A program made the position numbers and the translations under genes. Under the pieces are notes generated by a model. The model did not search any database. It was not told the origin of the DNA and was given only the letters and a program-made list of their open reading frames with translations. A DNA stretch of 64,000 nucleotides from an uncultured Myxococcales bacterium (GTDB lineage Bacteria > Myxococcota_A > UBA9042 > DTJE01): positions 62,001-126,000 of the forward strand of contig CAIZWN010000070.1 in assembly GCA_903936705.1 (NCBI GenBank), in the 5' to 3' direction. Below, one piece after another: positions 19,487 to 31,472 of this stretch. Within the stretch, counting starts at the first letter, position 1. Each line of letters opens with the position of its first letter.

Positions 19487-19630
19487 GCGTCCATGAAACT
19501 CATCCGAGGGCCAATTATCGAGGTCTGGCGTCCGCGGGTCAACAGGCGTGGGCTGTGAAAAGTCTTCCCGGCGTCGCACGGAAGCTTCATCTGGTTTTCC
19601 CGTGATGTCATGCCGGACCGTGCTGTTTCC

Positions 19631-19658
19631 TTGACATCGACAGCCGCGGGGCTATCCT
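19631..19658 (+). promoter_or_regulatory. Sigma-70 promoter of the hydrogenase-related operon
   Basis: TTGACA (19631-19636), 16 bases, TATCCT (19653-19658). It places transcription start near 19665, which rules out the ATG at 19610 as the start of the first subunit and supports the GTG at 19712. Confidence 0.55.
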
Positions 19659-19711
19659 GCGCCCCGCACATATGGATAGGGTTCGCACCGGCGGACCCGC
19701 CGAGCGGCATC

Positions 19712-21703
19712 GTGACAGTTGCTCTCAGCCTGGTGCTCTTCTCCATCCCCATTTTAATCCTGGGCGGAACCCTGTCCGCAATTCTGTACCGGCATGATCG
19801 GGCGGCGCGGATCACTGGCTGTGTGGCCGGTTTCCTTGGAACGGCGGTCGGCCTTTCGGGCGCGTTGCTGGGACTGATTGACGGGGTCGAGGAAACCGTG
19901 GCATCGGTTTGGCGATTGCCGGTCGGCACGGTGTCGGTAGGTCTTGATCCGCTGACCTCCTTCTTTCTGTTTTGCATCTTTCTCGTTTGCGGACTTGGCG
20001 TCGTCTACGCGATCGGATACCTCAAGCACCTCCCAGGGCGTGCTCGTGTCGCGCCGGCACTGGCATTCTTCAATCTTCTTGTGGTGTCCATGGCCGTTGT
20101 CGTGCTTGCCAGGGACGCGATCTTGTTCCTATTGGCGTGGGAAGCAATGTCTCTGTCATCCTTCTTTCTGGTGACTTTCGACGCCTCTCAGGAATCCACC
20201 AGGCGCGCGGGCATCTTCTACCTGATCGCCTGCCATGTCGGCCTGGTACCGCTGGTCCTTCTGTTCGTTCTGCTGGGCGATCCCGCAGGTTCGTTCGGGT
20301 TCCAGGCAATCCGTGCAGCGACGGCGCCCGGGGGAGGACTTGCGACCGCAGCCTTCCTGCTGGCACTGCTGGGCTTCGGCATCAAGGCCGGCTTTTGGCC
20401 GGTGCACGTCTGGCTGCCCGAGGCTCATCCGGCTGCTCCAAGTCACGTTTCGGCGGTGATGTCGGGTGTGATGATCAAGCTGGGCATCTACGGTCTGCTG
20501 AGGACCTTGACGCTGCTGGGCACCCCGTTGGAGTGGTGGGGGTTCGTACTGATTGCCATAGGCATCGTTTCCGGCGTCGGAGGTGTGTTGCACGCCCTGG
20601 CGCAGCATGATTTGAAGCGGCTCCTGGCTTACTCCAGCGTCGAGAACATCGGGATTATCGCGCTGGGGATGGGCCTTGGGATTGTCGGTCGTGCCAACGG
20701 GAACTCGACCATCGCATTCCTGGGTTTTGGCGGGGCCCTGCTTCACGTCCTGAACCACGGCCTCTTCAAGGGACTGCTGTTCCAGGGTGCCGGCAGCGTA
20801 ATGCACGCGACCGGTACCCGAGATCTCGATTCACTTGGCGGCTTGATGAAAAGGATGCCGGTGACCGGAGCTGCCTTCCTGACCGGCTCGGCGGCCATCA
20901 GCGGGCTGCCACCACTGAACGGCTTCGTCGGCGAGTTGCTGATCTATGTCGGAGCCTTCCTGGGTGTAGTGGAACTGCCATCGGCCAGCGGCCTTTGGAC
21001 GCTGGCCATAGTGCCGGCGCTGGCATTGATCGGAGGGCTGGCGGCGGCGTGCTTCGTGAAGGCTTTCGGGGTCGTGTTCCTGGGCGAGCCTCGTACGCCG
21101 GCGGCAGCGGCGGCGCACGAAGTCGATATGTCGATGAGGATCGCCATGGTGGCGGGTGCTGCCCTGTGCATCGCGATTGGCGTGGCACCCCAGGTCGCGT
21201 TGCGCCTGATTGAGGGCCCGGGTGCCCTCCTTGCGGGGTCAGCATTGTTGCCACCGGTCGTTACCGAAGTGCTTTCGGCGGTCACGAGGGCCTCGCTGGC
21301 CCTGATCTGCCTGGTGGCGCTGGCGGCGTCAGTGCGCTTTCTTCTGTTGCGTCGTCGCGAGGTCCGGCGTGCAGCGACCTGGGGATGCGGCTATGAGGCC
21401 CCGACTCCGCGGATGCAGTACACGTCGGCATCCTTCGCCGATCAGGTGCTGGCACCGGCTGAAACCATCTTCGAACACCACATCGAGGCCGGTGGGCTGA
21501 ACGGGTACTTTCCGCGAACTGCTCACCACCACGAGCGCCTGGGCGACATGGCGGCAGATCGCGTCATGGAACCGGCTATGGGCCTTCTTGTGTCGGCGTT
21601 TGGCAGGCTCGGCTTCCTCCAACAAGGGGGCGTTTCCAGATACCTGGTGTGGGTCCTGCTGACAGTCGTTGTGCTGCTGGTCTGGCAGCTTGGTGCTTTT
21701 TGA
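19712..21703 (+). CDS. Proton-translocating antiporter-like subunit (HyfB/HycC type)
   Basis: A 663-residue polytopic membrane protein of the NuoL/M/N-Mrp antiporter family, with about 14-16 helices. The functional core is present: LLAWEAMSLSSFF (Glu of helix 5), FGIKAGFWPVHVWLPEAHPAAPSHVSA (Lys and His of helices 7-8), and a DLKRLLAYSSVENIG segment. The C-terminal GCGYEAPTPRMQYT is particular to HyfB/HycC-type subunits of group 4 hydrogenases. GTG 19712 is chosen from the promoter just upstream; length then matches HyfB (672). First gene of a six-gene operon. Confidence 0.9.
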   Translation: MTVALSLVLFSIPILILGGTLSAILYRHDRAARITGCVAGFLGTAVGLSGALLGLIDGVEETVASVWRLPVGTVSVGLDPLTSFFLFCIFLVCGLGVVYAIGYLKHLPGRARVAPALAFFNLLVVSMAVVVLARDAILFLLAWEAMSLSSFFLVTFDASQESTRRAGIFYLIACHVGLVPLVLLFVLLGDPAGSFGFQAIRAATAPGGGLATAAFLLALLGFGIKAGFWPVHVWLPEAHPAAPSHVSAVMSGVMIKLGIYGLLRTLTLLGTPLEWWGFVLIAIGIVSGVGGVLHALAQHDLKRLLAYSSVENIGIIALGMGLGIVGRANGNSTIAFLGFGGALLHVLNHGLFKGLLFQGAGSVMHATGTRDLDSLGGLMKRMPVTGAAFLTGSAAISGLPPLNGFVGELLIYVGAFLGVVELPSASGLWTLAIVPALALIGGLAAACFVKAFGVVFLGEPRTPAAAAAHEVDMSMRIAMVAGAALCIAIGVAPQVALRLIEGPGALLAGSALLPPVVTEVLSAVTRASLALICLVALAASVRFLLLRRREVRRAATWGCGYEAPTPRMQYTSASFADQVLAPAETIFEHHIEAGGLNGYFPRTAHHHERLGDMAADRVMEPAMGLLVSAFGRLGFLQQGGVSRYLVWVLLTVVVLLVWQLGAF

Positions 21704-21710
21704 GGTGGCG

Positions 21711-22628
21711 ATGTTCGATGTGCTGATGCACCTGGCCTGGTTGATCCTCCTGCCCCTGCCGATGCTGGGCCTGGTAACCGTGGTCAAGTCGTGGATCGCA
21801 GGACGCCGGGGCCCGCCGTTGCTGCAGCCCTTTCACGATGTCGTCAAGTTGCTTCGCAAGGGTGCCGTCTACAGTCGGACGACAACCTGGGTCTTCGCGG
21901 CCGGGCCGGTCGTCGCGCTGTCCTCGACCGTGCTGGCCGGACTGATTGTGCCGATGGGTTCCCCTTCCTCGCCCTTCGGCTTTAGCGCTGATGTCATCGT
22001 GTTTGCCTACCTGCTTGGGCTTGGTCGATTCTTCACCATGACGGCAGCCTTGGACACCGGGTCGGCCTTCGAGGGCATGGGCGCCAGTCGCGAGGGCGCC
22101 TTTGCTGCACTGGCGGAACCGGCGCTGTTCCTTGCCTTGATGATCCTGTGCGTCCCGGCCGGCGGCATGTCGTTCGGGGAGGCATTCGCCGTGCTGCCTG
22201 CATCCCACGGCCTGCTGCGCAGCCCCGGCCTCCTGCTGGCCGCGCTTGCCTTGGGCGTCGTCCTGTTGGCGGAAACGTCCCGCATTCCGGTAGATGACCC
22301 GAACACTCACCTCGAACTGACGATGATTCACGAAGTCATGGTGCTTGACCACGGTGGCCCGGACCTGGCCTTCATACAGATCGGGTACGCGCTGAAGCTG
22401 TTCGTCCTCGGGTCGGTAATCGTGCACCTGGTTCTTCCGATTCCGGCCGACTCGTGGACTGGTCCTGCCGCGTTCCTGGCCGGCCAGGCCGGCATCGCCG
22501 TGGCAGTCGGTATCATCGAGTCGGTCATGGCCCGCCTGCGTCTGTCTCGCGTTCCCCAGTTTTTGATCGGGGCTTGCGTCGTGGCGGCGGTAGGGGTGCT
22601 GGTCCTCTTTACCGGGGGGCGCCCATGA
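21711..22628 (+). CDS. NuoH-like membrane subunit (HyfC type)
   Basis: 305 residues, eight or so helices, the membrane arm subunit that contacts the peripheral arm. The family motif ETSRIPVDDPNTHLELTMIHE is complete, corresponding to the acidic loop of NuoH/HycD/HyfC. It follows the HyfB-like gene by seven bases behind an AGGTGG, and its stop overlaps the next start. Confidence 0.92.
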   Translation: MFDVLMHLAWLILLPLPMLGLVTVVKSWIAGRRGPPLLQPFHDVVKLLRKGAVYSRTTTWVFAAGPVVALSSTVLAGLIVPMGSPSSPFGFSADVIVFAYLLGLGRFFTMTAALDTGSAFEGMGASREGAFAALAEPALFLALMILCVPAGGMSFGEAFAVLPASHGLLRSPGLLLAALALGVVLLAETSRIPVDDPNTHLELTMIHEVMVLDHGGPDLAFIQIGYALKLFVLGSVIVHLVLPIPADSWTGPAAFLAGQAGIAVAVGIIESVMARLRLSRVPQFLIGACVVAAVGVLVLFTGGRP

Positions 22629-23296
22629 GCCTGGATGCGGACCTGCTGCTGTTGCTGGTTATTGGCATCGACCTTTTCATCGGTTCGACCAGCCGGTTGG
22701 GCGCCCGCATTCGGGCATGCGCGCTGCAGGGCCTGGTTCTTGCGGCGCTGCCGCTTGCCATCCAGGGTACAGGTGTTCTGGCCGAGGGCGAACGGATCGT
22801 CCACACCGTCCTGGCGGTCGGGGCGACGTTGATCCTGAAGGCGGTAGTCATCCCCATATTCCTGTTGCGGGCCATGCGGCGCAGCGGTGTTCGTCGCGAA
22901 GCCGATCCCGAACACAGCCTGCACCTTTCACTGCTGCTTTGCGGTGTGCTGGTCGGGTTGTCGTTCTGGATCGGGGCGGTGATGTTGCCACCCCAGGCAG
23001 GCTCCAGCCCTCTGGGCGTTCCTGCCGGCCTGGCAACGATGCTTATCGGGCTGTTCCTGACCATCAGCGGACGCACTGAATTGACGCAGGTCATTGGCTA
23101 CATGGTCCTTGAGAATGGCGTCTTCGTCATAGGCCAGCGCCTGTTGGGCGAGTTCCCGCTGGTCGTGGAACTGGGCGTCCTGCTGGACGTCCTGGTTGCG
23201 GTCATGCTGATGGCCATCCTGGTGGTATTCACAAACCGCCAGCACGAACAGGGAGCAGATGTGGCGGCAGAAACCGTCGGGGGGGGCGCGCCATGA
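22625..23296 (+). CDS. HyfE-like membrane subunit (NuoK-related)
   Basis: 223 residues with six or seven hydrophobic helices. The VIGYMVLENGVFVIG segment carries the membrane Glu typical of NuoK and MrpC, and the extra N-terminal helices are those of HyfE. ATGA overlap with the HyfC-like gene and again with the HyfF-like gene shows tight coupling. Confidence 0.85.
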   Translation: MSLDADLLLLLVIGIDLFIGSTSRLGARIRACALQGLVLAALPLAIQGTGVLAEGERIVHTVLAVGATLILKAVVIPIFLLRAMRRSGVRREADPEHSLHLSLLLCGVLVGLSFWIGAVMLPPQAGSSPLGVPAGLATMLIGLFLTISGRTELTQVIGYMVLENGVFVIGQRLLGEFPLVVELGVLLDVLVAVMLMAILVVFTNRQHEQGADVAAETVGGGAP

Positions 23297-24753
23297 TCGT
23301 GTTGTGGCTGCTCCTTGCGCTTCCCGTAGCCGGTGGTGTAGTTGCGGCAATGATTCCCAGTCCGCGGGCGGTGCTGTTGCTGTGTGTTATCGGTGCGCTG
23401 GCCGAGGTCGTGCTGGCCGCGTTGGTAGTCCCCGCGGCCCTTGACGCCCCGGTTTTTGCCGGCGGCCGCCAGTTGATGCTGGACGCGCTGTCCGCGTACC
23501 ACCTGGGATTGGTCGTCGTGGTCTTCGCGTTCTCGTCGGTGTTTGCACTCAGGTACTTCGGGCCTCTGGTGCAAGACGGAACCTTTTCGCGCGGCACCGC
23601 CCGCCGGTTCGGCGCGGCCTGGTTCGGCTTTCTGGCCAGCATGGTCATGGTCCTGCTGGCGAACAACGTCGGTCTGCTGTGGGTCGCAATGGAAACCACG
23701 ACGCTGGCTTCGGCCTTGCTGGTGTGCCTGGAATTCGACCCTCCGTCGGTGAAAGCCTCGTGGACCTACATGATGATCTGCTCGGTCGGCATCGCGCTGG
23801 CCCTTCTGGGCACGTTCCTGCTGTGCGGCGAGGCCCGCAACGTCACCACGGGAACCGAGAGCCCGTTCCTTTGGACAGATCTCGTTCGAGCGGCTCCGCG
23901 CATGCGGCCCGGCGGCGTGAAACTGGCGTTCCTGTTCCTGCTGGTCGGCTATGGAACCAAGGCGGGCCTTGCGCCCATGCACACCTGGTTGCCGGATGCT
24001 CACGGGCAGGCTCCGACGCCTGTTTCGGCGGTCTTGTCTGGCGTTCTTCTGAATTGTGCGATGTACGCGATCAGCCGCTTCGTGCCTGTCGTTGACGCGG
24101 TCACAGGCGGCGACGGATGGGCATCAACACTGCTAGTACCCTTCGGTCTTGTGTCGATCCTGGTAGCCGTGGCGTTCATCGCCCACGAGCGCGACCTGAA
24201 GCGGCTGCTGGCATATTGCAGCATCGAACACACCGGTATCATCGCCCTGGCCCTGGGGCTTGGTGCAATGCCGGCGGCGCTGTTCCACACGCTGGGACAT
24301 TCGATTGCCAAGATGGTCGCATTCTTTTCGGTCGGGTTCCTTGCACGCCAGCACGGCACTCGTGACAGCCAGGCCATCAGCGGGATGTTGCGGGTTTCCC
24401 CCTTGGCCGGGATGGGATTGCTGCTGGCGGTGCTTGCCCTGGCGGGTGCTCCTCCGTTCTCGCTGTTCATGAGCGAATTGTGGGTAGCAATAGAGGGGGT
24501 GGAGCAGGGTCACACCGCTGTCGTAGTGGCGTTCCTGCTGGGGGTGGCCGTGATCGCCGTCGTGCTGTTGCGACCCGTGCTGGGCATGGTGTGGCGTCCA
24601 GTGGCCAAGGGGGGCCGCGCTGCCGGTCTGGGATGGATCGACTGGTTGCTGGTGGCTGCTCCACTGGCGGTGTTGGGGCTGCTGGGCTTGTGGATGCCTG
24701 CCTTGTTGACTGACGCGTTGAACAAGGCGGCTGCGATTCTGCGAGGCGGCTGA
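23293..24753 (+). CDS. Proton-translocating antiporter-like subunit (HyfF type)
   Basis: 486 residues, second NuoN/L-like subunit of the operon. The key Glu is in WVAMETTTL, and the Lys/His helix pair in YGTKAGLAPMHTWLPDAHGQ. A further HERDLKRLLAYCSIEHTG segment matches HyfF. Length fits HyfF (about 490-525). Overlaps neighbours at both ends (ATGA before; TGATG junction after). Confidence 0.9.
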   Translation: MIVLWLLLALPVAGGVVAAMIPSPRAVLLLCVIGALAEVVLAALVVPAALDAPVFAGGRQLMLDALSAYHLGLVVVVFAFSSVFALRYFGPLVQDGTFSRGTARRFGAAWFGFLASMVMVLLANNVGLLWVAMETTTLASALLVCLEFDPPSVKASWTYMMICSVGIALALLGTFLLCGEARNVTTGTESPFLWTDLVRAAPRMRPGGVKLAFLFLLVGYGTKAGLAPMHTWLPDAHGQAPTPVSAVLSGVLLNCAMYAISRFVPVVDAVTGGDGWASTLLVPFGLVSILVAVAFIAHERDLKRLLAYCSIEHTGIIALALGLGAMPAALFHTLGHSIAKMVAFFSVGFLARQHGTRDSQAISGMLRVSPLAGMGLLLAVLALAGAPPFSLFMSELWVAIEGVEQGHTAVVVAFLLGVAVIAVVLLRPVLGMVWRPVAKGGRAAGLGWIDWLLVAAPLAVLGLLGLWMPALLTDALNKAAAILRGG

Positions 24754-26300
24754 TGAAACTGGCGAATCCCAAGTCATTCCACAACGGACAGGCCGTCGCA
24801 ATCTTCGACGTTGCCTCGGTTGCACCCCGTGCCCTTCGGGATCTGGTTGTGAATTCCTGCTCGCACGGCGGGCGTCTTTGCGGGTTGTTCACGTTGCCTG
24901 GTCGGCCCGGCACGCTGGACCTGGTGGCGCTGATTGCCCACGACTCCGAAGGGCGCCTCAGCATGTTGAAGGCAGGAGTGGCGCAAGGCGGCAGGTACCC
25001 CTCGCTGACAGCCGAGCTGCCATCGGCGCATGCCTTGGAGCGGGCAATCTGGGAGAGCGACGGTTTGCAACCCGACGGGCACCCGTGGCTGAAACCATTG
25101 CGACGCCATCCTGCGCTGGAACCTGCCGGGGCGGCTGAAACAGGCGATCCTGTCGGCAGGAACCAGGGGGCGGGTGCTGCTGGAGGCCGTGATCACCCGT
25201 TTTTCCGGATGGATGGTCCCGGGGTGCACGAGGTGGCGGTGGGCCCGGTGCATGCGGGCATCATCGAGCCGGGGCACTTCCGTTTCCAGTGTTCGGGTGA
25301 GACGGTTCACCATCTTGAAATCCACCTTGGTTACCAGCATCGAGGTGCCGAGGCCCTGCTGCGCGATTCGTCACCTGCGCGCCGGCTGGCTGTGGCCGAA
25401 ACACTTGCCGGCGACACGTCTATCGGCCACGGGATTGCCTGCTGCCGCGCCATGGAATCACTGGCTGGGATCGAGGTGCCCGAGCAGGCACTTTGGTTGC
25501 GGGCTGTCGCGCTGGAACTGGAGCGCCTTGCCAATCACGTGGGCGACCTTGGCGCACTTTGCAACGACGTGGGTTATCTTCCCGGGGCGTCATGGTTCGG
25601 GCGTTTGCGAGGCGAGTTTCTGAATGCCCAGATGGAGATCTGCGGCAGCCGCTTTGGACGGGGCCTGCTGGTGTTCGGCGGTGTCCGGTTCGGTGTTTCC
25701 CCGGAACTCAGGCACGACTTGCTGGGTCGATTGGCTATTGCCCGTCGTGATCTTGATGATGTGGCATCCGTCACCTTCGAGTCCCCGTCGGTCCTGGGCC
25801 GCTTCGAGCACAGCGGCATCGTGTCCCGTCAGGCGGCCGAGGACATCGGTATGGTTGGCCCGGCTGCACGTGCCAGCGGCTGCACTCGCGACGTTCGCTG
25901 CGATCATCCGCTGGGCGCCTTCGTCGACTGGGGTCTTTCCTCGGCCGTCGAGACCGCCGGGGATGTTCTTGCCCGTGCCCGAGTGCGGTGGGTCGAAGTG
26001 AAGCGCTCGCTGGAATTCGTGCTGGCCCGCCTGGCGGCGCTGCCCGATGGCCCGTTGGTTGTTCCCATGCCGCAGCCACGCCCGGGTGCCGTTGTCGGGG
26101 TGCTGGTCGAGGGATGGCGCGGCGAGATCTGCCATGTCGTGGCGACAGGTGACGACGGGCAAATCGTGGCTTACCGTGTGTTTGATCCCAGCCTGCACAA
26201 CTGGTTCGGTCTGACTTTGGCGATGCGCGGGACTCCGATTTCGGATTTTCCGTTGTGCAATAAATCGTTCAACCTTTCGTATGCGGGGCACGACTTGTAG
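24753..26300 (+). CDS. HyfG-like large subunit lacking NiFe ligands (Ehr type)
   Basis: 515 residues. N-terminal NuoC-like domain (to about 140), then the NuoD / hydrogenase large-subunit fold with HHLEIHLGYQHRGAE and EVPEQALWLRAVALELERLANH. In [NiFe] hydrogenases two CxxC pairs hold the metal site. Here the first is replaced by DTSIGHG (about 221-227; Thr and Gly at the Cys positions) and the C-terminal pair by a tail ending in FPLCNKSFNLSYAGHDL. There is no C-terminal processing sequence. The protein therefore cannot bind NiFe in the usual way and matches the 'energy-converting hydrogenase related' (Ehr) group, whose electron donor or substrate is unknown. Confidence 0.88.
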   Translation: MKLANPKSFHNGQAVAIFDVASVAPRALRDLVVNSCSHGGRLCGLFTLPGRPGTLDLVALIAHDSEGRLSMLKAGVAQGGRYPSLTAELPSAHALERAIWESDGLQPDGHPWLKPLRRHPALEPAGAAETGDPVGRNQGAGAAGGRDHPFFRMDGPGVHEVAVGPVHAGIIEPGHFRFQCSGETVHHLEIHLGYQHRGAEALLRDSSPARRLAVAETLAGDTSIGHGIACCRAMESLAGIEVPEQALWLRAVALELERLANHVGDLGALCNDVGYLPGASWFGRLRGEFLNAQMEICGSRFGRGLLVFGGVRFGVSPELRHDLLGRLAIARRDLDDVASVTFESPSVLGRFEHSGIVSRQAAEDIGMVGPAARASGCTRDVRCDHPLGAFVDWGLSSAVETAGDVLARARVRWVEVKRSLEFVLARLAALPDGPLVVPMPQPRPGAVVGVLVEGWRGEICHVVATGDDGQIVAYRVFDPSLHNWFGLTLAMRGTPISDFPLCNKSFNLSYAGHDL

Positions 26301-26323: not shown

Positions 26324-27100
26324 ATGAACCTGATCCGCGCGCGGTTCCGCCAAGGCATGCGGACGATGGCCTGGCCGGATGGTCCTGCCAGTCTGCCTTC
26401 GCGTTTTCGCGGGCGGCCAGTTCTGGACCAGTCGCGTTGCATTGACGGCTGTCGTGCCTGCGCCGATGCCTGTCCGACGGGGGCGGTGCACGGCGCGCCT
26501 CTTCGCATGGACCTTGGTGCGTGCCTGTTCTGCCCGGCGTGCGCCGAAGCGTGTCCTACCGGCGCGATCCAATTTTCCAGCGATTTTCGCCTGGCCGCGT
26601 CTGCGCGCCAGGATCTCCAGTTGTCTGGTGAGGCACCTGCCAGCACCGACGCCGACGCCGAGACCCGGCGCCTTGCCGTTGCCCTGCCAGCCGCCACGCG
26701 CCGCCTGTTCGGCCGTTCCTTGAAGCTGCGCCAGGTTTCCGCCGGAGGCTGCAACGGGTGCGAGGCCGATCTGAACGTGACCGGAATAGTGGTGTTCGAC
26801 CTTGGCCGCTTCGGGGTGCAGTTCGTGGCGTCACCACGCCACGCCGATGGAATCGTGGTGACCGGGCCCGTTACGGCGAACATGGAACAGGCCCTGCGCG
26901 ATACGTGGGAGGCCGTGCCCTCGCCGCGCCTCCTGATCGCCGTGGGCGCATGTGCGCTGTCTGGCGGGCCTTTCATCGGTTCTGCGCCTTGCGGTGCCGG
27001 AGTGCCTTCGGACTTGCACGTGGACCTGTTTGTCCCAGGCTGTCCGCCGCACCCTCTGACGTTTCTTGACGGCATCTTGAGAATGCTGGGCAGGCTGTAG
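26324..27100 (+). CDS. Fused ferredoxin and NuoB-like small subunit (HyfH-HyfI)
   Basis: 258 residues combining two peripheral-arm parts. Residues 39-77 hold two [4Fe-4S] motifs: Cys39, 43, 46, 50 (C-x3-C-x2-C-x3-CP, one residue longer than usual) and Cys67, 70, 73, 77 (canonical). Residues 130-258 are the NuoB/HyfI fold with the proximal cluster ligands intact: Cys142 and Cys145 (CNGCE), Cys209 (GACA) and Cys239 (PGCPPHP). So electron transfer centres are kept even though the adjacent large subunit has lost its NiFe ligands. GGGGAGGG precedes the start. Last gene of the operon, converging with sdhB. Confidence 0.9.
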   Translation: MNLIRARFRQGMRTMAWPDGPASLPSRFRGRPVLDQSRCIDGCRACADACPTGAVHGAPLRMDLGACLFCPACAEACPTGAIQFSSDFRLAASARQDLQLSGEAPASTDADAETRRLAVALPAATRRLFGRSLKLRQVSAGGCNGCEADLNVTGIVVFDLGRFGVQFVASPRHADGIVVTGPVTANMEQALRDTWEAVPSPRLLIAVGACALSGGPFIGSAPCGAGVPSDLHVDLFVPGCPPHPLTFLDGILRMLGRL

Positions 27101-27156: not shown

Positions 27157-27932
27157 CTATCCGACCGCCGCCTTTCCGCCGGTACCTTGGTACACCATGA
27201 AACTGGCTTTGTGGAAGTCGCAGTTGGCGCGGGCGATGTGGTGAATACCGATGCGCTTGGGGCAGACGGCTTCGCACTCGCCGTAGTTCGAACAGTATCC
27301 GAAACCCTCGGCCTCGGCCGTGCGGATCATCGCCAGGGCACGCTTCAGGCGCTCGGGCTGGCCCTGGGGCAGCAGGCCCAGATGCGACAGCTTGGCCGAC
27401 ACGAACAGTGACGCCGACCCGTTCGGGCAGGACGCCACGCACGCGCCGCAGCCGATGCACTCGGCCGCATCCATCGCCAGGTCGCTGGACTCCTTCGACA
27501 CGGTAATGCCGTTGGCGTCCGGGGCCGAACCAGTTCGCACCGCGATGAAGCCTCCGACCTGGATGATTCGGTCGAACGCTCCGCGGTCCACAATCAGGTC
27601 CTTCAGGATCGGGAAGGCCTTGCTGCGGAACGGCTCGATCCAGATCTCGTCGTTGTCATGGAAGTGTCGCATGTGCAGTTGGCACAGTGTCGTGCCGGAC
27701 TTCGGACCATGCGGTTCCCCGTTGACCACGGCGCCGCAGCAACCGCAGATGCCCTCGCGGCAATCGTGCTCGAAGTGGACGGGCTCTTCGCCCTTGACCA
27801 CCAGTTCCTCGTTCAGGACGTCCAGCATCTCCAGGAAGGACATGTGTTCGGAAACGTCCGCAAGAGTGTAAAGCTGGAAACCGCCCTTGTTGGAACGCGC
27901 CTTCTGGCGCCAGATATGCAGCGTCAGCTTCA

Positions 27933-27933
<1 letters not shown>
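27157..27933 (-). CDS. sdhB: Succinate dehydrogenase/fumarate reductase iron-sulfur subunit
   Basis: 258 residues. [2Fe-2S] ligands at Cys58, 63, 66 and 84 ([10 protein letters not shown] ... TLC), then [12 protein letters not shown] and a later CEAVCP for the [4Fe-4S] and [3Fe-4S] clusters. It passes electrons from the flavoprotein to the cytochrome b subunit. GAGGAG upstream of ATG 27933, which overlaps the sdhA stop by one base (TAATG). Confidence 0.93.
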
Positions 27934-29842
<1,909 letters not shown>

Positions 29843-29846
<4 letters not shown>

Positions 29847-30529
29847 GCGACACCTCCTGGGATCTTGATCAGGCCGGCAAGGACCGCGATCGGGAAGGAC
29901 AGGTCGCCGATTACGACGATGGCCGTCAGGAGGTTCGCAACGCAGCGGCGTGCGCGGTCCTGGGCCGGGTGCGACCAGCCCAGCGTCTGGAACCATGACC
30001 ACAGGCCATGGTTGAAGTGCAGCATCAGCATCAGCACCGCGACAATGTAGAAGGCCGACACGTACCACAGGGTGAAACCGTTGACGACGTTCTCGTAGGC
30101 GCGCAGCTCCTGGAAGGGCAGCCCGGCGCTGCCGCACGTCAGGTGCAGTATGTGGTAGACGATGAATGCCCCGATGATCGGGCCCGACCAGACCATCGTG
30201 CGTGCGGCATAGCCGACCTCGCGGTAGACGCGCTTGGCGTACCGGACGGGACGGGCGCCCCAGGCCTGAATGGTCAGGACGATTGCTGCCCAGACGTGCA
30301 GCACGACACACAGGATCAACACGATTCGGGCGGCCCACAACAGGGGGGCAGCTCGGGTTGAGTGCAGGAAGGCCGCGTACTCGTTGATTGCCTTCCCTCC
30401 GTCGCCCGCGTACAGCTGGAGGTTCCCCAGCATGTGCACGAACACGTAGGCAAAGAGGATCAAGCCAGTGACGGCCATCACCATCTTCTTGCCGACTGCC
30501 GAACGCCAATAGGCTGCCAGTGCGGACAT
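29843..30529 (-). CDS. sdhC: Succinate dehydrogenase cytochrome b558 subunit (type B)
   Basis: 228 residues, five transmembrane helices in one polypeptide with haem-ligand histidines spread over helices (HMLGN, VLHVWA, VYHILH, MLHFNHG), the pattern of di-haem type B anchors. It anchors SdhAB and hands electrons to, or takes them from, quinone. GGAGGG precedes ATG. First gene of sdhCAB. Confidence 0.9.
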
Positions 30530-30859: not shown

Positions 30860-31147
30860 ATGTATGCAAAGGAAACGGTCAAGCCCATTACCTACTTGAA
30901 GAATAATGCTGCGGTGGTGATCCGGGACGCCGCCGAGTCAGGATACACATTGGTCGTAACGCAAAATGGGGAAGCCAAAGCCGTGGTCATGGGTATTGAC
31001 CAGTATGAATACTGGAAGCGATCCCTGGCCATGCTGAAACTGATTTCACTGGGCGAAGCGGATATCGCGGCCGGGAATCTGGTGACGGCGGAAGATGCTT
31101 TCGCGGCTGCGGAACAGACCATCAGGCAGGCTCGCAAGAATGACTGA
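30860..31147 (+). CDS. Phd/YefM-family antitoxin
   Basis: 95 residues. The N-terminal KPITYLKNNAAVVIRDAAESG is the DNA-binding, ribbon-helix-like Phd/YefM fold; TLVVTQNGEAKAVVM and the following DQYEYWKR are family core. The acidic/amphipathic C-terminal part would wrap the toxin. It overlaps the toxin gene by eight bases. It probably represses its own promoter. Confidence 0.88.
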   Translation: MYAKETVKPITYLKNNAAVVIRDAAESGYTLVVTQNGEAKAVVMGIDQYEYWKRSLAMLKLISLGEADIAAGNLVTAEDAFAAAEQTIRQARKND

Positions 31148-31472
31148 CCAGCATTTCAAGGTCCTGTGGACCGCTGTTGCTGTGCTGGATCTCAAGGATA
31201 TTATTGAATACATCGCCGCAGACTCAAGTTTGAACGCGACAAATGTCCTGAACAAACTGAAGGATCGCGTTGCAGAACTCGACCAATTTCCGGACCGTGG
31301 CCGGGTAGTTCCCGAACTTGCCAAGGTTGGTCTGTCGGGCTGGCGCGAGCTGGTCGTCAAACCCTACCGCATCGTGTACCGGATTGACCGCGATTCGGTC
31401 TATATCCTTGGCGTGCTGGATTCCCGCCGCGACCTCGAGGAACTTCTACTAAGGCGCTTGATTCGTATGTAA
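31140..31472 (+). CDS. RelE/ParE-superfamily toxin
   Basis: 110 residues. The fold is indicated by DLKDIIEYIA near the start, a FPDRGRVVPEL loop, and the C-terminal strands WRELVVKPYRIVYRI and VYILGVLDSRRD. ParE-like members poison gyrase, RelE-like members cleave ribosome-bound mRNA; the sequence alone does not decide, though the 'DRGR...VPEL' form is usual in ParE. Downstream partner of the Phd-like antitoxin. Confidence 0.87.
   Translation: MTDQHFKVLWTAVAVLDLKDIIEYIAADSSLNATNVLNKLKDRVAELDQFPDRGRVVPELAKVGLSGWRELVVKPYRIVYRIDRDSVYILGVLDSRRDLEELLLRRLIRM

Follow-up and report, generated by a model that had tools for sequence, protein, structure and literature searches.

The closest described systems to the locus studied here are the energy-converting hydrogenase-related (Ehr) complexes. 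Ehr are reported to be without NiFe-binding residues (PMC6349859, PMC10284858), their function is called unknown (PMC10284858, PMC6728331) and a coupling of a cytoplasmic redox reaction to ion transport is “suspected” (PMC6349859). The Ehr of Geobacter sulfurreducens (GSU0739-0745) has NuoL-like and HyfE-like subunits together with large and small Ehr subunits, which are more abundant in the proteome on formate than in hydrogen-containing conditions (PMC7894505). The operon Rv0081-0087 of Mycobacterium tuberculosis is assigned to EHR (PMC6728331), and archaeal Mbx is counted as Ehr by one paper. The accessible parts of PMC11540253, PMC6606698 and PMC3578206 contain nothing on Ehr complexes. 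Our locus lies on a stretch of 64,000 nucleotides from an uncultured Myxococcales bacterium (contig CAIZWN010000070.1), hereafter “the window”. Its six genes form a compact hyfBCEFG-I operon of the known Ehr kind (Table 1).

The large subunit was aligned with HycE, HyfG and NuoCD of E. coli. The four cysteines that bind the NiFe centre in HycE (C241, C244, C531 and C534) correspond to A219, T222, S509 and G512. Ehr are widespread: one genome scan gave at least 568 stretches encoding a relative, and the counts over 80 relatives given below concern the best 80 of these 568. The four ligand columns contain A (74), C (3) or S (3); T (77) or S (3); S (80); and G (80). All four ligands are absent in 77 of the 80 relatives, and the last three positions are non-ligand in every one. 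Because non-ligand residues recur in this way across the relatives, the loss is not a local accident. The chain ends three residues past the fourth ligand position in the window and in 80/80 relatives; the corresponding tail measures 35 residues in HycE and HyfG, and 35–44 when the formate hydrogenlyases (FHL) of Azospirillum and Rhodovastum and the L106 protein are included. There is therefore no C-terminal peptide of the kind cut by the hydrogenase protease. A hidden metal site using the neighbouring position 511, a Cys in 76 of the 80 relatives, was considered and rejected for the window, which has Ala there. These residues make it very unlikely that the window complex is a hydrogenase. One divergent large subunit from the same order as the window (L168; genome G013, contig C22) has A, T, S and E at the ligand positions, unlike core Ehr.

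We modelled the large subunit as a single chain with AlphaFold2 from 50 aligned sequences (mean predicted local distance difference test, pLDDT, 87.0; predicted template modelling score 0.89). Residues 119–147 and 508–515 are below pLDDT 50, the last eight including S509 and G512. Among the solved structures listed, the best match of the model is HycE of FHL (7z0s_E; Z 42.0, root mean square deviation 2.9 over 475 residues, 26% identity) and the others are complex I-type 49-kDa chains (Z 36.7–39.3 over 333–345 residues). Such a match of a predicted structure tells the fold, not the function, and the absence of a family from the list of matches says nothing against it.

The small subunit retains its cluster ligands. 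Its proximal-cluster cysteines are C143, C146, C210 and C240, and all four are present in 76/76 relatives with the gene found (none was found in the other four of the 80). A narrow text pattern for the CxxC motif caught 74 of these 76, the aligned columns having Cys in all of them. The spacing C-x2-C-x63-C-x29-C is the same as in HycG (C48, C51, C115, C145) and differs from NuoB, whose first two cysteines stand side by side (C63, C64). At the level of sequence, the proximal ligands are of the hydrogenase-type CxxC form and not of the NuoB CC form. The initial annotation had stated that the large subunit has none of the four NiFe ligands and that the small subunit of the same operon, whose gene lies just beyond the 24753-26300 it covered, keeps the proximal cysteines. 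Both statements hold, but its cysteine numbers (142, 145, 209, 239) are one too low, and what it calls “NuoB cluster ligands” are proximal-cluster ligands of the hydrogenase type. In the window, the fused two-[4Fe-4S] ferredoxin domain has eight cysteines out of eight. Among the relatives, ferredoxin cluster 1 is complete in 63/76, cluster 2 in 66/76, and all twelve cluster cysteines are found in 63/76. The constraint on the electron path is strong, since the proximal cysteines are invariant in these relatives and most of them keep the full set. In Geobacter and similar loci (L044, L047, L055, L072 and L082) the first ferredoxin cluster has a single one of its four cysteines left and the second has three. 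The genes of the large and small subunits lie about 0.9 kb apart in L044 (between 9503 and 10390) and also in L047 and L072, where ferredoxin cysteines are missing.

A tree of 40 chosen rows, rooted on NuoD by our own choice, places the Ehr large subunits as sister to E. coli HycE/HyfG, with the NuoD rows separate (100/100). All 26 Ehr rows without ligands fall on one side of a branch together with a single Cys-bearing row (L107), with ultrafast bootstrap (UFBoot) 100 and SH-aLRT 100; the Geobacter row L044 and the other ligand-less rows share one side of a branch with UFBoot 98 and SH-aLRT 94. Constraining ligand-less Ehr and NuoD together costs 73 log-likelihood units, and a ligand loss shared with complex I is rejected by the approximately unbiased (AU) test (p = 8.6e-6). 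Because this forced grouping is rejected, the superfamily most likely lost its NiFe ligands on at least two occasions. The match to complex I first proposed for this locus is sound for the superfamily module, the lost NiFe ligands and the kept cluster path, but is not supported as a specific match.

The Cys-bearing row comes from a single Myxococcota genome (G140, contig C671, 1008-3489; L107 and L136 are the same protein). This Ehr-like large subunit, which shares 39% identity with that of the window and 34% with HycE, has the complete set of four NiFe cysteines and lacks a C-terminal tail. It has Ehr marks at the proton-gate loop and the extreme C-terminus, and the ferredoxin motifs fused to the adjoining small subunit are incomplete. 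This one row is possibly an intermediate between FHL-type hydrogenase and Ehr. Twelve more loci of the same phylum gave no further Cys-bearing case; they comprise eight Ehr, three NuoD and a divergent row without ligands.

To map the empty site we aligned 94 core Ehr rows, seven short plasmid Ehr, two Ehr without proximal cysteines, 23 NuoD and seven NiFe rows (six different proteins), five duplicates being dropped. The NuoD rows were picked by their residues in the ligand columns; their ligand counts are circular, their His/Tyr counts are not. Roles of the site residues were taken from the FHL structure paper (PMC9474812) and the paper on the Pyrococcus complex MBS (PMC7684303). HycE E193, H284, E437, R395 and R478 correspond to E172, H262, E415, R373 and R456 of the window, each present in 94/94 core Ehr rows. 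The proton-gate residue E193 is Glu in 103/103 Ehr rows and Gly in 23/23 NuoD rows; the equivalents of H284, R395 and E437 are present in 103/103 Ehr rows and that of R478 in 102/103.

The initial annotation had suggested a quinone-like or other ligand in this site and a comparison with the quinone-site residues of NuoD. The quinone-headgroup positions, His38 and Tyr87 of Nqo4, are His and Tyr in 23/23 NuoD rows. In the window they are I171 and G220, with Ile in 102/103 and Gly in 103/103 Ehr rows. With these replacements, the kept proton-route residues and the lost ligands, the pocket therefore retains a proton route without metal ligands or known quinone contacts. Another ligand is possible; the contacts by which complex I holds its quinone are absent. 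By sequence the empty site resembles that of a hydrogenase more than the complex I quinone site.

The vacated pocket could still bind quinone as in complex I, which would make the complex an ion-pumping ferredoxin:quinone oxidoreductase. A NiFe pocket did turn into a quinone pocket in complex I (PMC9474812), superfamily and fold are common with the 49-kDa subunit, and the adjoining succinate dehydrogenase (SDH)-type operon makes a quinone pool likely. We nevertheless find a quinone reductase rather unlikely, given the Ile and Gly at the headgroup positions, the hydrogenase-like cluster motif and anchor loops, and the independent origin. The canopy Asp points the same way: it is described as strictly conserved, with non-protonatable mutants impairing complex I (PMC9474812), and the position holds Asn in 88, Asp in five and Ser in one of the 94 core rows, though one of the 23 NuoD rows also has Asn. 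A quinone fed by the proximal cluster is moreover not the job of the whole family, because two relatives described below are without proximal cysteines. The Asn found at the HycE S283 position in 88/94 core rows was dropped as a complex I-like trait: PMC9474812 names Asn in its compared complex I subunit, but 22 of our 23 NuoD rows have Ser.

We favour a different reading, which we rate slightly above an even chance: the window encodes a non-hydrogenase, redox-driven ion pump, an Ehr complex whose peripheral arm comes from a group 4 [NiFe]-hydrogenase and whose empty pocket holds an acceptor. It is based on the loss of the NiFe ligands together with the presence of the twelve cluster cysteines, the proton-gate Glu and proton route, and the ion-path residues of the membrane subunits. 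The equivalents of NuoM E144, K234, K265 and E407 are all kept in the hyfB-like subunit; the hyfF-like subunit keeps those of E144, K234 and E407 and, like E. coli HyfF, has Asn for K265. The membrane arm would consist of the anchor, the HyfE-like subunit and the two antiporter-type subunits, next to a short peripheral arm. Low-potential electrons, most simply from ferredoxin, would be taken up by the two [4Fe-4S] clusters and handed on to the proximal cluster, reducing a non-proton acceptor in or near the vacated metal pocket, protons being supplied by the old hydrogenase route. This reaction may power the movement of ions by way of the beta1-beta2 loop, the anchor and both antiporter-type subunits. 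The acceptor could be a quinone held without the complex I His/Tyr pair or, equally, a small soluble molecule. The 2-oxoacid:ferredoxin oxidoreductase gamma family, a plausible source of ferredoxin, is matched four times in the window's own genome.

We also weighed an MBS-like activity, in which the proximal cluster itself would reduce polysulfide or sulfane sulfur. Pyrococcus MBS is a solved superfamily member with an incomplete set of NiFe ligands, a ferredoxin donor and no quinone residues; its cluster is ligated by three Cys in a motif three residues shorter than that of MBH, the proton-gate Glu is absent and two NiFe cysteines are left (PMC7684303). The window in contrast has the HycG spacing and no NiFe cysteine, and the proton-gate Glu is invariant in Ehr. 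With HycE the score is 165 bits, and with the structure chain 6u8y_L, which we take to be MbsL, it is 74 bits. We therefore set the MBS type aside, chiefly on the cluster spacing and the kept Glu, as very improbable. The residue map thus describes an empty site that is unlike both the complex I quinone site and the MBS site and keeps the hydrogenase proton route.

Several observations weigh against a redox-driven pump. At least one ferredoxin cysteine is missing in 13/76 close relatives. No conserved redox or donor partner recurs beside the operon: except for one regulator, no neighbour family of any kind occurs in more than 7 of the 80 loci, many of which have short flanks. The accessible part of a limited literature shows no substrate, donor or ion for a hyf-type Ehr. 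The further points come from thirteen plasmid loci of named organisms, picked for diversity and not at random, which comprise ten Ehr, two true FHL (Azospirillum MTCC4035 and Rhodovastum, four ligands of four) and one Rhodococcus locus with the proximal four in its small subunit and no large subunit within the stretch, left outside the table of loci. All twelve cluster cysteines are present in the Variovorax Ehr. Seven others (Paraburkholderia, Cupriavidus metallidurans, Ciceribacter, Burkholderia stagnalis, Azospirillum Az39, Rhizobium and Bradyrhizobium) keep the proximal four on a small subunit without ferredoxin domain; three of these records are unannotated there, and no search for a separate ferredoxin gene was made. 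In the last two, the proximal positions themselves have changed, to T, D, E and S on plasmid pMESIL01 of Allomeiothermus silvanus (L139) and to N, D, D and A on a Mycobacterium branderi plasmid (L142), and one of four and three of four cysteines remain in the first and second ferredoxin clusters. Electron transfer to the proximal-cluster site is thus not universal in the Ehr family. Since some members have lost proximal or ferredoxin cysteines, the family as a whole cannot have redox as its function, and perhaps the window complex does not either. No report of proximal-cluster loss in Ehr was found in a limited search of partly accessible literature; Marreiros et al. 2013, cited as an Ehr source, may discuss it.

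These two members suggest a redox-independent ion translocator, in which a pseudo-enzyme peripheral arm anchors or gates the antiporter-type membrane arm and electron flow is dispensable. Both have reading frames for all six subunits, and both of their antiporter-type subunits keep the NuoM E144/K234/E407 equivalents, as in the two other members compared (the window and Rhizobium). Their losses look independent by sequence, a single clade being disfavoured (AU p = 0.033). On the other side, twelve cluster cysteines in the window and in most close relatives are unexpected if electrons are irrelevant, and the two are the only such members among the ten named plasmid-borne Ehr examined. The M. 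branderi branch is also very long (2.47), so that its placement is unsure and a changed function or decay is possible. For the window we consider such a translocator improbable. Plasmid pMESIL01 bears two copies of the Ehr small-subunit gene, 100% identical in protein, and the Variovorax plasmid has two Ehr-like operons in tandem (L138:2848-17371), the second cut by the stretch end.

For the family as a whole we tentatively raise, as a view that is more doubtful than not, that redox is optional in Ehr and that what the members have in common is the movement of ions by the antiporter-type arm, with a pseudo-hydrogenase holding or gating it. If so, the family would record the successive stripping of a redox pump: from the Cys-bearing, tail-less protein of G140 C671 to core Ehr such as the window, without NiFe and with three clusters, then to proteobacterial plasmid types with the proximal cluster alone, and finally to at least two lineages without proximal ligands. 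The last would be complex I-superfamily machines running, or waiting, without electrons. Members without proximal-cluster cysteines would offer a direct test of whether ion movement in this superfamily needs electrons.

The operon was called from reading frames and family models, the NCBIfam rows listed for the six proteins being all under their curated cut-offs. No hyfA, hyfD or formate dehydrogenase gene was seen in it. The B, C, E, F, G and I genes are all present in 61/80 loci; the remaining 19 mostly miss one operon end, where flanks are short.

Table 1. Coordinates of the Ehr operon and of adjoining features in the window.
Feature	Position	Strand	Remarks
hyfB-like antiporter-type membrane subunit	19610..21703	+	697 aa as called, start possibly later; Proton_antipo_M 3.5e-56; top NCBIfam row hydrogenase 4 subunit B, under its cut-off
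hyfC/nuoH-like membrane anchor	about 21711..22628	+	NADHdh 1.4e-31; short HyfC-type loops, NuoH insertions absent
hyfE-like membrane subunit	22625..23296	+	NCBIfam hydrogenase 4 membrane subunit 2e-17, under cut-off; no Pfam match
hyfF-like antiporter-type membrane subunit	23293..24753	+	Proton_antipo_M 1.9e-44; hydrogenase 4 subunit F 2.6e-107, under cut-off
Ehr large subunit, HyfG-like, with fused N-terminal 30-kDa-type part	24753..26300	+	A219, T222, S509, G512 at the NiFe ligand positions
Ehr small subunit, HyfH-like two-[4Fe-4S] ferredoxin domain fused to HyfI-like part	26324..27100	+	Oxidored_q6 3.6e-25; Fer4 domains
SDH/fumarate reductase-like operon	27157..30529	-	convergent with the Ehr operon; family scan on the iron-sulfur subunit only, two other subunits named by reading
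Two small overlapping genes	30860..31472		presumably Phd/YefM antitoxin-like and ParE/RelE toxin-like

The window's own genome also contains HypD, a match to the NiFe hydrogenase large-subunit family and, on a different contig, a NuoCD-like gene. Contig C69 has a NuoB-like gene (L167:7812-8342), the other complex I/Ehr query subunits being without match in the surrounding 16 kb. The regulator mentioned above is a gene fusing HTH_17 with a phosphotransferase system (PTS) EIIA-type domain. It precedes the Ehr operon by no more than 400 bases in 33 of the 42 loci that could be tested (e.g. L006:2205-2930), on the same strand in 32 of the 33; the opposite one, in L033, is only 27% identical. Of the other testable loci, five of Geobacter type have it divergent and more distant, in L037 it overlaps a called frame, and three have none. 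The gene gave no match in L162, in L163 or in the window's own genome, the last search being without positive control.

We conclude that the window complex is a new member of the known Ehr family. To prior knowledge we add the residue map, the independence of the ligand loss and the members that lack proximal cysteines. As in described Ehr, its large subunit is of group 4 hydrogenase type without NiFe-coordinating residues, its membrane arm has antiporter-type and NuoH/HyfC-type subunits, and it groups with ligand-less rows including Geobacter (L044), away from NuoD. The Geobacter loci L044, L055 and L072 are among its relatives, the G. sulfurreducens and M. tuberculosis Ehr being compared by description. 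It differs from the Geobacter type (L044, L047, L055, L072, L082) by its complete fused HyfH-like ferredoxin. FHL and hydrogenase-4 (E. coli Hyc and Hyf; PDB 7z0s) provide the closest solved large subunit and share the N-terminal fusion, proximal spacing, proton-gate Glu and proton route; the window differs by the absent NiFe ligands, Asn for the canopy Asp and the lack of the 32-residue tail after the Arg position. Relative to group 4 [NiFe]-hydrogenases it has the proximal CxxC...C...C but 0/4 Cys of the two CxxC ligand motifs and, at its three-residue end, no protease-cleaved peptide of the FHL type. MBS, the sulfane sulfur reductase formerly named Mbx, likewise belongs to the superfamily and has neither a full set of NiFe ligands nor the quinone residues; the window has HycG-like spacing, E172 and zero NiFe Cys, whereas MBS has an Mrp-rich membrane arm. 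With complex I NuoD/NuoB the window shares the superfamily, the absence of NiFe ligands, the proximal-cluster position and antiporter-type subunits. It differs in having neither the quinone His/Tyr nor the tandem Cys, in its hydrogenase Glu, in its independent ligand loss and, where NuoH bears insertions, in the short HyfC-type loops of its anchor, which may bear on the opening of the pocket.

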